From Pleomorphomonas carboxyditropha (GTDB lineage: Bacteria > Pseudomonadota > Alphaproteobacteria > Rhizobiales > Pleomorphomonadaceae), in assembly GCF_002770725.1 (NCBI RefSeq), contig NZ_NQVN01000001.1, positions 558,001 through 622,000 on the forward strand: a stretch of DNA of 64,000 nt, in the 5' to 3' direction. Position 1 is the stretch's first letter, and the number at the start of each line of letters is the position of its first letter. The notes beneath the pieces were generated by a model, which ran no database searches, had not been told where the DNA came from, and saw only the letters and a list, made by a program, of their open reading frames with translations. The translations under genes and the position numbers were made by a program. Below, in pieces: positions 55,865 through 63,413 of the stretch.

Positions 55865-56440
55865 ATGGCCAAGGCTCAGTTTGTGTCGGAAGACAACACC
55901 GCCGACGAGGACGTCGGCGTGGAAGTCATTGAAGTCGCGGGCGTCATCAAGTGGTTCGACGTCGCGAAGGGATTTGGCTTCGTCGTGCCGGATGAGCCGG
56001 GCTTGCCTGACGTGCTCCTCCACGTCACCTGCCTGCGGCGCGATGGGTTCCAGACCGCCTACGAAGGCTCGCGCGTCGTTTGCGAGGCGATGCGCCGGCA
56101 AAAGGGGTTGCAGGCGATGCGCGTGCTGTCGATGGACGAATCGACGGCGGTGCATCCGTCTCAATTGCCGCCCTCGCGCACCCATGTTCAGGTGACCGCC
56201 TCGAGCGGCCTCGAGCAGGTCGAGGTGAAGTGGTTCAACCGCGTGCGCGGGTTCGGCTTTCTGACGCGTGGCGACGGTACCGAGGACATTTTCGTCCACA
56301 TGGAAACGCTGCGCCGCTTCGGCATCACCGAGCTTCGGCCGGGCCAGCGCGTGCTGGTGCGCTACGGCGACGGGCCGAAGGGAAAGATGGTCGCGGAAAT
56401 TCGCCCGCTTCAGCCCGGCGGCATACCTTCGTCACATTGA
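55865..56440 (+). CDS. Double cold-shock-domain protein
   Basis: A 191-residue protein with two cold-shock domains. The second (about 118-182) is canonical, with KWFNRVRGFGFLTR and DIFVHMETL carrying RNP1 and RNP2. The first (about 25-90) keeps KWFDVAKGFGFVVP but RNP2 reads DVLLHVTCL, so it may bind nucleic acid differently. Such CspD-like tandem proteins are common in alphaproteobacteria and bind single-stranded RNA or DNA. GGAGA precedes the ATG. A TTAA-type dyad lies about 120 bases upstream. Confidence 0.92.
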   Translation: MAKAQFVSEDNTADEDVGVEVIEVAGVIKWFDVAKGFGFVVPDEPGLPDVLLHVTCLRRDGFQTAYEGSRVVCEAMRRQKGLQAMRVLSMDESTAVHPSQLPPSRTHVQVTASSGLEQVEVKWFNRVRGFGFLTRGDGTEDIFVHMETLRRFGITELRPGQRVLVRYGDGPKGKMVAEIRPLQPGGIPSSH

Positions 56441-58915: not shown

Positions 58916-59296
58916 TCGAGCCTCTGACGGTTTGGGACTCCCGTGGCGCGAACTCGACATTCGGATCCCGGCCGGCATCGGCTCCAGATCAAATGTCAAA
59001 TTCAAAGTTCCACTGGGAACAATGGATTGCCAGTGATTTACGACTCCGATACTTGCTCCGGGCTGGTATCGGGCGGATGACAGATGCCGGAGTCGAACCA
59101 CTGGTCCGACATGCTTCCACATTGAGGCGACTTTGGGAACCGATTCATGGAGATCTTGTAATTTTTGATGAAGCGGGCCCCGTCCGTTGGCAAGGCGCGG
59201 GATGGTTGCGCAACTGTGATGCCCAGACGTGTCTTTCCGTGATAAGAGGCGCGCGTATCTCTCGGCAGAGAGTTTCTTCGGCGCGGATTTCGGTGC
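58916..59296. other. Intergenic region upstream of the antiporter and the GT39 gene
   Basis: A 381-base divergent gap with lower G+C than its surroundings. It holds a 6-bp hairpin CACTGG/CCAGTG at 59011-59035 and the palindromic repeat at 59042-59094. Frames of about 130-155 codons cross the region on both strands, but they look like non-coding sequence. Confidence 0.5.
59042..59094. repeat. 53-bp palindromic intergenic repeat, copy 2
   Basis: Arms GACTCCG and CGGAGTC at the ends. Same length and clearly related sequence to 26983-27035, most strongly in the outer arms and the TTGCTCCG block. Confidence 0.6.
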
Positions 59297-60985
59297 ATGG
59301 ACGAGCAGAGCGACAAGCAGGCCCGGGCAGAGGGGGAGCCGATATCCGGCAAAGCGCCGGGCCGCCCGTGGCCGCATCTCGTCAACCTTCTCGTCCTGAC
59401 CCTCGTCGCCTTCGCGCTTTTCGCGCCGGGCATCTCGTCGCTGCCGCTCACCGACCGTGACGAGGCGCTCTACGTCCAGGCCTCCCACCAGATGCTGGAA
59501 ACCGGCGACTGGGTGGATATCCGCTTTCAGGACGAGCCGCGTTACAAGAAGCCGGCGGGCATCTACTGGATACAGGCCGCCGCGGCCGAATTGTCCGGTT
59601 ATGGCAAGGATGCGCCCCTCTGGATCTATCGCCTGCCGTCGCTGGCGGGGGCGGTGCTGATGGTCCTGTTCACCTACGGCATCGGTGCGACGCTCGGCAC
59701 GGCGCGGGCGGGGCTGATCGCCGGCCTCCTCGCCGCCTCCACCATGCTGATCGGCTTCGAGGCGCGTATCGCCAAGACCGACGCCATGCTGTGCGCCACG
59801 GTGCTGGCCGCCGAGTTTGCCCTGGCCCGGGCCTATGTCGATCCGGCAAGGGCGAGATCGCTGCCGCGCAATGCACTGTTCTGGACGGCGATGGGCGTCG
59901 GCATCCTGATCAAGGGACCGATCACGCCGCTGATCGCCGGCCTCACGCTGGTCGTCGTGTCGGCTAGGGAACGGTCGGCGGCGCTCTGGCGGTCGCTGTC
60001 GCCGCTGAAGGGCATCGCCTTCATGCTCCTTCTGGTGCTGCCCTGGCTCATCGCCATCGGCTGGATCTCGGGCGGCGCGTTCTTCAGCAAGGCGGTCGGC
60101 CAGGACATGCTCGGCAAGGTGGCCTCCGGCCAGGAGTCGCACGGGGCGCCGCCCGGCATGCATCTCCTGGTGGCGCTCGGCACCTTCTGGCCGCTGTCGG
60201 TGCTGGCGCCGTTGGCGATCGTTCAGGTCTGGAAGGCGCGACGCGAGCCGGCGATCTTCTTCCTGATCGCCTGGGTCGTGCCGGGCTGGCTGATATTCGA
60301 GGCGGTGGCCACCAAGCTGCCCAACTATGTCCTGCCCTTCATGCCGGCGCTGGCGGTGCTGGTGGCGCTGTCGCTCGACAGCGGCGCGCTCGGCGCGGCG
60401 CGGCGCGGCTGGCGGATTTCGGTCGCCTTCATCGCGGTCGGCGCGGTGCTGGTCGGCTTCGGGCTCAACATCGCTTTCCTGATCTATCAGGGCCATGCGA
60501 GCTGGCAGGGCCTCGTCGGCGCGGTCATCGTCGCCGGCCTTGGCGTCGCGGCGAGCCGCTTTCTCGCTTCCGGGCGGCTGCGCTCCGGGCTGGCCGCCAC
60601 GGTGGCCGCCGCCGGCGGCCTGATGCTGCTGGGCTATGCCATCCTGCTGCCGGCGGCGAGGCAGCTCTGGCTCAGCGACGATCTCGCCGAAGCCGTCGCC
60701 TCCGTCCGCCGGTGCGACGCGCCGGCCGTCTCGGTGGTCGGCTATGGCGAGCCGAGCACCGTCTTCCGTCTCGGCACCGGCACGCTGCGGACGACCGCGC
60801 CGGCTGCCGCCGAAGCCTTCCGGATGAACGACTGCGCCATCGCCATCGTCTCGGCCAATAACCGGGAGGCGTTCGTTACGGCGCTCGGCGAGGCGGACAA
60901 GGCGCCGGAACCGGTCGCCACCGTGTCCGGCCGCAACCTCAACGGCATGAAGCTGCGCACCATGCTGCTGTTCGTAAAGCCGTGA
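59297..60985 (+). CDS. GT39/ArnT-like polyprenyl-phosphate glycosyltransferase
   Basis: A 562-residue membrane protein with about 12 helices of the PMT/ArnT family, which moves a sugar from a polyprenyl-phosphate donor to an envelope acceptor such as lipid A in the periplasm. Seen: the catalytic acid motif LTDRDEALYVQASHQML in the first periplasmic loop, FQDEPRYKKPAGIYW, the IAKTDAMLC block and the last loop with PNYVLPFMPALA. The acceptor and the sugar are unknown. It is the first gene of a three-gene unit with the PAP2-GT2 fusion (10-base gap) and the LABN protein. Confidence 0.9.
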   Translation: MDEQSDKQARAEGEPISGKAPGRPWPHLVNLLVLTLVAFALFAPGISSLPLTDRDEALYVQASHQMLETGDWVDIRFQDEPRYKKPAGIYWIQAAAAELSGYGKDAPLWIYRLPSLAGAVLMVLFTYGIGATLGTARAGLIAGLLAASTMLIGFEARIAKTDAMLCATVLAAEFALARAYVDPARARSLPRNALFWTAMGVGILIKGPITPLIAGLTLVVVSARERSAALWRSLSPLKGIAFMLLLVLPWLIAIGWISGGAFFSKAVGQDMLGKVASGQESHGAPPGMHLLVALGTFWPLSVLAPLAIVQVWKARREPAIFFLIAWVVPGWLIFEAVATKLPNYVLPFMPALAVLVALSLDSGALGAARRGWRISVAFIAVGAVLVGFGLNIAFLIYQGHASWQGLVGAVIVAGLGVAASRFLASGRLRSGLAATVAAAGGLMLLGYAILLPAARQLWLSDDLAEAVASVRRCDAPAVSVVGYGEPSTVFRLGTGTLRTTAPAAAEAFRMNDCAIAIVSANNREAFVTALGEADKAPEPVATVSGRNLNGMKLRTMLLFVKP

Positions 60986-60995
60986 GGGGCCGTCG

Positions 60996-62594
60996 ATGCT
61001 GATCAACAGGCGGCCGGCTCGCTGGCGCGATCCCGACGTCATCAAGACCGTCTTGTGGCTGGCCGGCGTCCTGACGGTTCTCGCCATCGTCGTGTCGGGC
61101 CGGTTCGATGAAGAGGCGCGCGCCTGGGTGATGGCCGGCGGGCGGCCGGCGCCGATCTGGCGGTTCCTGTCGCGGCTGGGCCAATCGGACTGGATGCTGA
61201 TCCCCTCCGGTGTCGTGCTGATCGTGATGTACTGTCTCAGGCGGCCGAGGTTCGGCGGTCCGGCGAGGTTCGAGACCCTCCACGACATGGTGCTGTTCTT
61301 TTTTACCGCCATCGCCGCCACCGGCATCGCGGTTCTCATCGTCAAATATTCGTTGGGCTTTTCCCGTCCGTCGGTCGAAGGCGCGCGGGTGATGCGCGTC
61401 TTCGCCTTCCATCCATCCTATGCTTCCTTCCCGTCGGGACATTCGACGACGGCGGCGGCCTTCGCGCTGTCGCTGACGCTTCTGTGGCGGCCGCTGGCCG
61501 TCGTGGTCTGGCCGCTCGCCATCGCCATCGGCGCGTCGCGGGTCATGGTCAACGCCCACCGGATTTCCGACGTGGTGGCCGGCCTTTCCTTCGGCGCCTG
61601 GGGCACGCTGTTCGTCGCGACCTGGTTCGCGCGGCGGGGCCGGCTGTTCCGCCTGTCGGAAAGCGGGCTGCCGCTGCCGCTCCGCCATCGGTTCGACACA
61701 CTCTCCGGCGAGGGCAGAGCCTTGTTGACGCGGCTCCGGCTTGTCATAAGCAGGCGGATCGGCGTCCCCGATTTTCATCTCTCAGGGGTAGGGCAGCCGG
61801 ACGCCGCGAAAAACGCGCATCCGGCCGGAGTGACCAGCATGATCATACCGAAACCATCCGAGACGGGCTTTGTCTCGGTCGTCATTCCCGCCCGCAACGA
61901 GGCGGACAATCTCGCGGTCATCGTGCCGGAGATTCTCGTGGCCATGGCCGGCCGCGCCTTCGAGGTGATCGTCGTCGACGATGGCTCGACCGACGGGACC
62001 GGCGCCGCCGTCGCCGCCTGGAAGGCCGAGGGCAGGCCGGTCCGCCACATCCGCCATGTCGAGGCCTGCGGCCAGTCGGCGGCCGTGCGTTCCGGCGTGC
62101 TGGCGGCGCGTGGCGAGATCGTCGCCACCATCGACGGCGACGGCCAGAATGACCCCGCCTATATCCCGAGACTGGTCGATGCGCTCATCGCCGCCGGTCC
62201 GTCGGTGGGGATCGCCGCCGGCCAGCGCCTGAAGCGGACCGACGGCCTGGCCAAGCGCTATGCCTCGCGCTTCGCCAACTGGCTGCGCAACGTCATCCTG
62301 AAGGACGCGACGCGCGACACCGGTTGCGGCCTCAAGGCGGTGCGGCGCGACATCTTCCTGCTGCTGCCGTTCTTCCACGGCTGGCACCGCTATCTGCCGG
62401 CGCTGGTGCTCAGGGAGGGCTACGGCGTCACCCATCTCGATGTCGTCGACCGCTCGCGCATGCACGGCGCTTCCAACTACGGCATCTTCGACCGCGGATT
62501 GCAGGGCATCCTCGACCTCTTCGGCGTCTGGTGGCTGAAGCGGCGCATCAAGCGTCTTCCCGTGGTCTCGGAAATTGGTGGCGACAATGGCTGA
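60996..62594 (+). CDS. PAP2 phosphatase fused to ArnC-like GT2 glycosyltransferase
   Basis: A 532-residue continuous frame with two enzymes. Residues 1-250 are a six-helix PAP2/LpxE-like lipid phosphatase with all catalytic motifs: K117-x6-RP, PSGH at 146-149 and S181R-x5-H188-x3-D192. From Met282 a family 2 glycosyltransferase of the dolichol-phosphate or undecaprenyl-phosphate sugar type follows, with VVIPARNEADN, VDDGSTDGTG, and DGDGQNDP as the DxD region, but without the two C-terminal membrane helices of ArnC. The linker 251-281 has a hairpin-coding stretch, and GGAG stands eight bases before codon 282, as if the second half once had its own start. Its last eight bases overlap the LABN gene. 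Confidence 0.9.
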   Translation: MLINRRPARWRDPDVIKTVLWLAGVLTVLAIVVSGRFDEEARAWVMAGGRPAPIWRFLSRLGQSDWMLIPSGVVLIVMYCLRRPRFGGPARFETLHDMVLFFFTAIAATGIAVLIVKYSLGFSRPSVEGARVMRVFAFHPSYASFPSGHSTTAAAFALSLTLLWRPLAVVVWPLAIAIGASRVMVNAHRISDVVAGLSFGAWGTLFVATWFARRGRLFRLSESGLPLPLRHRFDTLSGEGRALLTRLRLVISRRIGVPDFHLSGVGQPDAAKNAHPAGVTSMIIPKPSETGFVSVVIPARNEADNLAVIVPEILVAMAGRAFEVIVVDDGSTDGTGAAVAAWKAEGRPVRHIRHVEACGQSAAVRSGVLAARGEIVATIDGDGQNDPAYIPRLVDALIAAGPSVGIAAGQRLKRTDGLAKRYASRFANWLRNVILKDATRDTGCGLKAVRRDIFLLLPFFHGWHRYLPALVLREGYGVTHLDVVDRSRMHGASNYGIFDRGLQGILDLFGVWWLKRRIKRLPVVSEIGGDNG

Positions 62595-62916
62595 TCTCTT
62601 CGCGCAGTTCGCCGGCTGGCTTCACGACGTATTCGTCAAGCAACTCGATTTCTGGGTGATCCTCGGCTTCATCGCCCAGGCCATGTTCACCATGCGCTTC
62701 GTCGTGCAGTGGCTCGCCTCCGAGAAGGCCAAGGCTTCGGTGATCCCGGTGGCCTTCTGGCTGTTCTCGCTGGGCGGCGGCTTCCTGCTGCTGGTCTATT
62801 CCATCGCCCGGCAGGATCCGGTGTTCATCGCCGGCCAGGGGCTCGGCCTGCTCATCTATATCCGCAACCTGATGCTGATCAGGAAGTCGACCAAGCGCGC
62901 CGACGGGCCTGAGTGA
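62587..62916 (+). CDS. Lipid-A-disaccharide synthase N-terminal-like (LABN) protein
   Basis: A 109-residue small membrane protein with about three helices and the LABN signature DFWVILGFIAQAMFTMRFVVQW, followed by SVIPVAFWLFSLGGG and IYIRNLMLIRK. The domain is found with ArnC-like glycosyltransferases and may help in flipping or presenting the polyprenyl-linked sugar (inference). ATG at 62587 overlaps the stop of the fusion gene by eight bases. It converges on ruvX with a two-base gap. Confidence 0.92.
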   Translation: MADLFAQFAGWLHDVFVKQLDFWVILGFIAQAMFTMRFVVQWLASEKAKASVIPVAFWLFSLGGGFLLLVYSIARQDPVFIAGQGLGLLIYIRNLMLIRKSTKRADGPE

Positions 62917-62918
62917 GA

Positions 62919-63413
62919 TCAGAGGCGTCGCGGATCGTCGGCGCGCGCGGCGAGATGCAGGCGGTCCAGGAAGCCTTGCAGGATGAAGCTCGCCGCCAGC
63001 TTGTCGACCACCTCGTCGCGCCGCCGGCGCGAGGCGTCCGCCTCGAGGAGCGTGCGGGTGACCGCCGCCGTCGACAGCCGCTCGTCCCAGAAGAAGATCG
63101 GCCGGCCGTCGAGGGGCGTGAGGTTGCGGGCGAAGGCGCGCGTCGACTGGGCGCGCGGCCCCTCGCTGCCGTCCATGTTGATCGGCAGGCCGAGCACGTA
63201 GCCGCCGACGTTATGCCGGTCGGCGAGTTCGATCAGCGCGGCGGCGTCCTTGCCGAACTTGACGCGGGACAGGGTCACGAGCGGCGTGGCGATCAGGAAG
63301 CGTTCGTCGGACAGGGCGACGCCGATCGTCTTGGTGCCGAGGTCGAGGCCGAACAGGCGGCGTTCCGCCGGCAGGGCCGCCACGAAGGCGATGGGATCTC
63401 CGGCTTCGGTCAT
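62919..63413 (-). CDS. ruvX: RuvX/YqgF Holliday-junction resolvase-like nuclease
   Basis: A 164-residue RNase H-fold nuclease. Seen: the first acidic motif [32 protein letters not shown] and [12 protein letters not shown], and the C-terminal [15 protein letters not shown]. Family members process 16S rRNA 5' ends (YqgF) or act on DNA junctions. ATG at 63413 with AAGG upstream is chosen; a GTG 30 bases upstream is possible. Confidence 0.94.

Follow-up and report, generated by a model that had tools for sequence, protein, structure and literature searches.

A candidate lipid A 1-phosphatase of the PAP2 superfamily and a GT2 polyprenyl-phosphate sugar synthase are encoded in one uninterrupted frame in Pleomorphomonas carboxyditropha, and most sampled genomes of the family Pleomorphomonadaceae share this fusion, which is a trait and no accident. 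From its sequence, the single open reading frame (ORF) is predicted, at somewhat better than even odds, to have a dual output, namely a fused LpxE-RgtE and a separately started RgtE. We tentatively propose, with a probability of roughly 0.45, that the joint between the two halves has two uses, serving both as a flexible linker within a tethered, membrane-spanning LpxE-RgtE and as the promoter, leader and ribosome site of the second gene. An earlier note on this DNA had posed a bifunctional enzyme and internal initiation as alternatives; open frames in 16 of 20 family genomes and a conserved start module suggest both at once. The enzymes and the pathway are already known, and the new part is their joining and the double-duty linker. 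Among the literature matches listed, titles and abstract openings contain no description of an LpxE/PAP2-glycosyltransferase fusion; the topics covered beside the fusion were LAB_N with galacturonic acid, internal starts and fused genes, RgtE and Pleomorphomonas lipid A.

Gene Neighborhood and Predicted Functions

The window, i.e., the whole stretch of 64,000 nucleotides that was analyzed, contains an operon-like row of an rgtF-like gene, the fused ORF and a LAB_N gene, all on the same strand (Table 1). The rgtF-like gene ends 10 bases before the start of the fused ORF, and the last 8 bases of the fused ORF are shared with the LAB_N gene, whose ATG is at 62587. Elsewhere in the window, an ORF at 55865-56440 resembles, by eye, a two-domain cold-shock protein.

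Table 1. Features of the fused PAP2-GT2 locus, in window positions.
Feature	Position	Strand	Basis
RgtF-like (ArnT-like) lipid glycosyltransferase	59297..60985	+	Pfam PMT_2, 43.2 bits (cut-off 26.1)
Fused PAP2-GT2 ORF	60996-62594	+	One uninterrupted frame, 532 aa
PAP2 half, LpxE-like membrane phosphatase	60996..61698 (end approximate)	+	Pfam, motifs, folded in model
Linker	61683..61838	+	Open in frame, without codon periodicity, synonymous sites kept; residues 254-281 disordered in model
Promoter-like TTGTTG-N17-CATAAG (CTTG-N21-ATA), candidate internal GT2 promoter	61721..61750	+	Hexamers invariant in 12/12 genomes
Short hairpin (GCCGGA/TCCGGC outer stem), just before SD	61796..61825	+	Outer stem mostly kept, inner not
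GGAG and ATG, candidate internal translation start	61827..61841	+	Both in 12/12 genomes
GT2 half, RgtE-like polyprenyl-phosphate sugar synthase	61839..62594	+	251 residues from ATG at 61839; Pfam Glycos_transf_2
LAB_N small protein	62587..62916	+	Pfam LAB_N, 114.4 bits

The fused ORF scores above the Pfam cut-offs for both PAP2 (PF01569; residues 100-215, 62.5 bits, cut-off 27.2) and Glycos_transf_2 (residues 294-454, 88.3 bits, cut-off 23.3). These matches, together with the recurrence of the joining in 16 of 20 family genomes, confirm the single 532-residue PAP2-GT2 frame that the earlier note had described. Its claim that both halves keep their catalytic motifs also holds for all the motifs sought: K117-x6-RP, PSGH (146) and SR (181)-x5-H-x3-D are intact in the PAP2 half, which with the PF01569 score place the ORF in the PAP2 superfamily, and DDGSTD (328) and DGDGQ (380) are intact in the GT2 half. 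The earlier note had called the GT2 half ArnC-like; the half scores only 82.4 bits with the curated ArnC model NF007986, whose cut-off is 529, and is not a member of that family. The upstream RgtF-like protein is likewise not a member of the ArnT family as modeled by NF009784 (84.5 bits, cut-off 567).

According to parts of three published accounts, lpxE, rgtF and rgtE form the set that replaces the 1-phosphate of lipid A by galacturonic acid and are clustered in M. loti (PMC5644692, PMC7663294, PMC7795004). Because the RgtF-like and LAB_N neighbors match this published cluster, the two halves of the fused ORF are best read as LpxE-like and RgtE-like. The PAP2 half is linked to rgtF and rgtE as in M. 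loti, and its neighborhood and motifs point to a candidate LpxE lipid A 1-phosphatase as the best reading; the GT2 half combines its domain score with linkage to rgtF, as expected of RgtE. The activity suggested in the earlier note, a lipid phosphatase that also charges a polyprenyl carrier, would be consistent with this neighborhood and with the GT2 fold. We infer the substrates of both halves from the neighbors, at 32-67% identity to the M. loti genes, and most likely the row rgtF-[lpxE-rgtE]-LAB_N would make lipid A in which galacturonic acid replaces the 1-phosphate. A serious rival is that the PAP2 half recycles the carrier instead, converting polyprenyl pyrophosphate to polyprenyl phosphate that feeds the GT2, and does not act on lipid A. 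LpxEs are stated in part of one paper to dephosphorylate undecaprenyl pyrophosphate as well (PMC6581854), but the RgtF-like neighbor and the published clustering favor lipid A, and three genomes retain the GT2 at a locus that has no PAP2; we regard carrier recycling as unlikely, though worth serious attention.

Distribution of the Fused Frame

The comparison covered 80 relatives that were searched, 20 family genomes and an order-wide draw of 249 genomes, nine of which belong to the family. With frames checked, stop-free PAP2-GT2 joining was found in 16 of the 20 Pleomorphomonadaceae genomes, including 13 of the 14 of the genus itself (all but G007) and, outside this genus, G014, G015 and G017, so that the fusion occurs in four genera of the family (g1, g2, g3 and g5). 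The PAP2 and GT2 are separate genes in G019, and no PAP2 lies between rgtF and the GT2 in G007 (L111), G016 and G018 (L116). Upstream of the GT2 in G007 there is, by eye, an apparent remnant of a PAP2 end.

The frame could in principle be an artifact, with a stop or a base lost through faulty assembly or sequencing, but its presence in 16 of 20 family genomes speaks against such an error, nothing was found in favor of one, and we give this explanation practically no weight. The earlier note had held that linker stops in close relatives, together with an assembly error in this genome, would undo its reading; the frame is open in 13 of the 14 genus genomes, and the remaining one, G007, has no PAP2 there.

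Outside the family, the 240 genomes of the order yielded a single stop-free match covering PAP2 and GT2, in G195, where Pfam detects the two domains as well. In a further eight (G077, G113, G101, G135, G229, G186, G208 and G176), the halves share a frame that is interrupted by at least one stop between them; this search counted same-frame pairs with matches at E <= 1e-40 only, pairs in different frames being uncounted. In two of these eight (L152 and L018, of G113 and G077, respectively), the PAP2 and GT2 share one frame that is split by a lone TAG, located some 22 codons upstream of the GT2 ATG and kept in both. The fused locus of G195, which belongs to another family (L167, 1501-2982), likewise encodes PAP2 followed by GT2 in a single frame without stops, but its PAP2 half has VSGE where PSGH is expected. 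Because of this replacement, the G195 fusion is probably independent, and the same domain pair appears to have been fused a second time.

Roseibium and Pannonibacter (L033, L034, L044 and L038) share the gene order rgtF-lpxE-rgtE-LAB_N with P. carboxyditropha, but their PAP2 and GT2 are separate genes, the PAP2 stop overlapping the GT2 start in Roseibium or just preceding it in Pannonibacter. In a tree of GT2 and LAB_N, the family loci used group together except G016, with weak internal support. The simplest reading is that the family underwent a single early fusion, after which the two genes separated again once and the PAP2 was lost more than once; repeated fusion within the family is also conceivable.

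The Linker Is Open but without Codon Rhythm

A poorly conserved linker is present, as the earlier note had said, but it is nearer 50 residues (about 230-281) than the 30 given there. Codon columns were aligned over 12 genomes of the genus, and none of the 12 has an in-frame stop in the linker. When the columns of codons 230-276 were shuffled for the 11 gap-free genomes, all 11 stayed open in 1.3% of 20000 shuffles, the average shuffle putting a stop into 8.2 of the 11; the other two forward frames over these codons have a stop in 11 and 4 of the 11 genomes. The twelfth genome (L012), which is 15 bases shorter and has its gaps placed as 3 and 12 in the DNA alignment, was left out of the shuffle count. 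The shuffle result lends modest support to translation through the linker.

Over the 12 genomes, the three codon positions (1/2/3) of the PAP2 body diverge by.154/.078/.427, those of codons 254-276 by.265/.314/.351 and those of codons 230-239 by.164/.188/.136; neither of the two linker stretches has a codon rhythm. Such a pattern is what would be expected if only two separate proteins mattered, with ribosomes leaving or the product being cut in the linker and the open frame being nearly neutral, and the GT2 kept without a preceding PAP2 in G007, G016 and G018 is in keeping with that. The absence of stops from 12 of 12 genomes, compared with 1.3% of shuffles for 11 of them, the fusion in four family genera and the stop-free joining in another family nevertheless speak against this reading, and we consider two separate proteins as the only products of consequence to be improbable.

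Constraint on synonymous sites was expressed as O/E, the observed over the expected share of codon differences that fall among codons with the same amino acid. The lowest values are 0.27 (codons 232-244), 0.31 (242-254) and 0.31 (273-285), the linker ranging from 0.27 to 0.44, and among 2000 column permutations a minimum this low has a frequency of no more than about 1 in 1000 (0.1% quantile 0.276). Of the 520 windows in the fused ORF, 39 have O/E < 0.50; the neighbors served as a control, and none of the 484 windows in the 3' part of rgtF or of the 100 in LAB_N is that low. The only low window listed far from the linker (0.48, codons 518-530) covers the embedded LAB_N start and is an internal positive control, being what is expected of an embedded start. 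Rare codons also gather in the linker, where ATA makes up 2.48% of codons 230-290 vs. 0.16% elsewhere. A rare ATA codon with an out-of-frame TAA, at 61746-61749, is kept in 12 of 12 aligned genus genomes.

The junction is under unusual DNA-level constraint, which a retained internal start best fits; synonymous constraint alone would look alike for a promoter, an RNA element or a different DNA site. A second protein encoded out of frame or antisense was considered as the cause of the constraint and is not favored, the constrained blocks being without a shifted codon rhythm.

Candidate Start Signals within the Linker

The conserved blocks of the linker include a promoter-like element and the sequence around the GT2 ATG. 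Over the 12 genomes, 30 of the 40 positions of 61716-61755 are invariant, compared with 12 of the next 70 bases up to the Shine-Dalgarno (SD) block, 309 of 630 in the PAP2 body and 397 of 645 in the GT2 core; the 30 of 40 are not unique, being equaled by 2 of 1299 other 40-base windows of the ORF. At the GT2 start, 21 of the 24 positions of the block formed by the SD, the ATG and the first GT2 codons (61826-61849) are invariant. GGAG (61827-61830) lies eight bases before the ATG (61839-61841), exactly as the earlier note had claimed, and the conserved SD and start codon coincide with the synonymous constraint, as in an internal gene start.

The CTTG-N21-ATA form of the promoter-like element, at 61721-61748 and with the spacing found in the genus itself, also precedes the GT2 in four (G014, G017, G018 and G019) of 8 other family loci, where dinucleotide shuffles predict 0.00, and in 0 of 10 loci outside the family, in a test that was not blind, the element having first been noticed by a looser pattern, and on family loci that are related and not independent. 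With the spacing relaxed to 19-22, it is found in 5 of 8 family loci and 1 of 10 outside, and the loosest pattern, found in 6 of 8 family loci (0.23 expected) and 4 of 10 outside (0.40 expected), is not family-specific. The element is present where the PAP2 is absent from its place (G018) or separate (G019); G007 has it at spacing 22 only, G015 has a degraded copy only, and G006, which is fused, and G016 are without it. In 27.3 kb of forward intergenic DNA there are 3 matches to CTTG-N21-ATA (0.11 per kb); the corresponding densities are 0.07 per kb for same-direction intergenic DNA read in reverse and, for coding sense strands, 0.003 per kb. So few matches cannot establish a promoter class. 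Genome-wide, the pattern that includes ATAAGC shows no enrichment (7 matches vs. 16 for the reversed control). A strict sigma-70 scan of 59000-63000, which used an E. coli-type consensus with at least 9 of 12 hexamer bases, a spacing of 16-18 and A2 and T6 of the -10, found 0 promoters, so that 61721-61750 also fails it, and no convincing promoter consensus of the organism emerged from a dyad search that covered the window and a further 400 kb, with 295 genes called crudely.

The hairpin that the earlier note had pointed out is present with its GCCGGA/TCCGGC sequence, but its conservation is weakly supported. Over the 12 genomes, pairing is kept in 94.4% of cells of the outer stem and 69.6% of the inner CGCG stem; the paired share was reached by 118 of 500 shuffles and the covariation score by 22 of 500, and the covariation term of RNAalifold over the hairpin region is only -0.87. 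On these numbers the hairpin is a weak candidate for a conserved RNA element, and a terminator scan found no intrinsic terminator in the linker.

These results bear on whether the ORF makes a fused bifunctional protein only, the kept DNA blocks then having another role, for instance in an RNA structure, as the site of a regulator or through codon choice that aids folding of the membrane protein before the GT2 is synthesized. The frame is indeed kept open, G006 is fused without the promoter-like element, the strict promoter scan is negative and the pattern is not enriched genome-wide. The kept blocks, however, are placed like a promoter, an SD and an ATG, with GGAG and ATG in all 12 genomes, and the promoter-like element also occurs in G018 and G019, where the PAP2 is absent or separate; we judge a fused protein alone to be rather unlikely, and prefer the dual output.

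Structure Model and Predicted Topology

An AlphaFold model built with 60 sequences has both halves folded (mean pLDDT 84.5, pTM 0.64), an earlier model from 14 sequences having been poor (mean pLDDT 57.7). In the model, a helix at residues 234-254 is followed by residues 254-281 with pLDDT below 50, and the GT2 begins at about residue 289; the low-confidence stretch coincides with the part of the linker that lacks codon rhythm. The best solved structures are ArnC and dolichyl-phosphate mannose synthase by sequence and ArnC, dolichyl-phosphate mannose synthase and GtrB by Foldseek (best E 8e-15), and the GT2 half has the fold of polyprenyl-phosphate glycosyltransferases. The 50 Foldseek matches listed are of glycosyltransferase type only, with no PAP2 match among them.

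As described in part of one paper, LpxE has its active site at the periplasmic surface, with some of the site located at the N-terminal end of the last helix (PMC6581854). The residues of the PAP2 half that match this site lie at or just before its last helix (190-213), and because the LpxE site is periplasmic, this helix should lead the GT2 half to the cytoplasm, the side on which loading of polyprenyl carriers takes place. ArnC is the closest solved relative of the GT2 half both by sequence and by fold, but only 31 residues follow the part that can be aligned with it (to residue 501). ArnC has C-terminal membrane helices, and because so few residues follow, these are taken to be missing in the GT2 half.

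Probable Origin of the Junction

An ATGA that combines the PAP2 stop with the GT2 start is present in three Roseibium loci and in G019. The PAP2 gene of Pannonibacter ends with the TGA of GGAGTGACC, just upstream of a GT2 start. The junction in the window, GGAGTGACCAGCATGATC, has a TGA after the GGAG and an ATGA at 61839-61842, both outside the PAP2 frame. The idea of a fossil junction, put forward in the earlier note, fits both the ATGA overlap in Roseibium and G019 and the out-of-frame ATGA here. In an ancestral ATGA-coupled gene pair, a shift of phase upstream of the junction has probably produced the fusion, and the start signals of the second gene would have been left inside the new frame and kept under selection. 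Because second codons beginning with A are common, the phase shift is something that we infer from the junction.

Proposed Working and Comparison with Known Systems

We propose that the LpxE-like half would strip the 1-phosphate of lipid A at the periplasmic face and that the RgtE-like half, on the cytoplasmic side, would load polyprenyl phosphate with galacturonic acid, which RgtF would transfer from the polyprenyl carrier. Ribosomes that read through the whole frame would produce the two enzymes tethered to each other, and additional free RgtE may come from the promoter-like element together with the SD and ATG. The fused enzyme could keep the donor supply near the dephosphorylating enzyme, and free RgtE would add donor. 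If this is true, the enzyme that dephosphorylates lipid A and the one that produces the sugar donor taking the place of the phosphate are linked in one polypeptide, and the cell could tune free RgtE, and with it the donor supply, independently of the tethered form. The locus would also be a comparative example of regulatory signals that were swallowed by a fusion and persist inside a coding linker, and a gene model with a single protein would probably miss the second product.

The closest parallel in gene content is the M. loti cluster rgtE / LAB_N / rgtF / lpxE, which was reportedly described by Brown et al. in 2013 as the pathway for the alpha-(1,1)-GalA of lipid A. In M. loti CJ3sym (L083), the same four gene types lie side by side, and identities to the proteins encoded in the window are 66% for the GT2, 67% for LAB_N, 40% for RgtF and 32% for the PAP2. 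The PAP2 and GT2 of M. loti, however, are separate genes at opposite ends of the cluster, whereas here they are adjacent and in one frame. For the predicted dual output, a known parallel is SctQ/SpaO of the injectisome, of which a full-length protein and a C-terminal product are made by internal initiation. Both would be cases of one frame with two starts, but unlike in SctQ/SpaO, the P. carboxyditropha ORF would have a complete enzyme as its second product, perhaps expressed from a promoter of its own.
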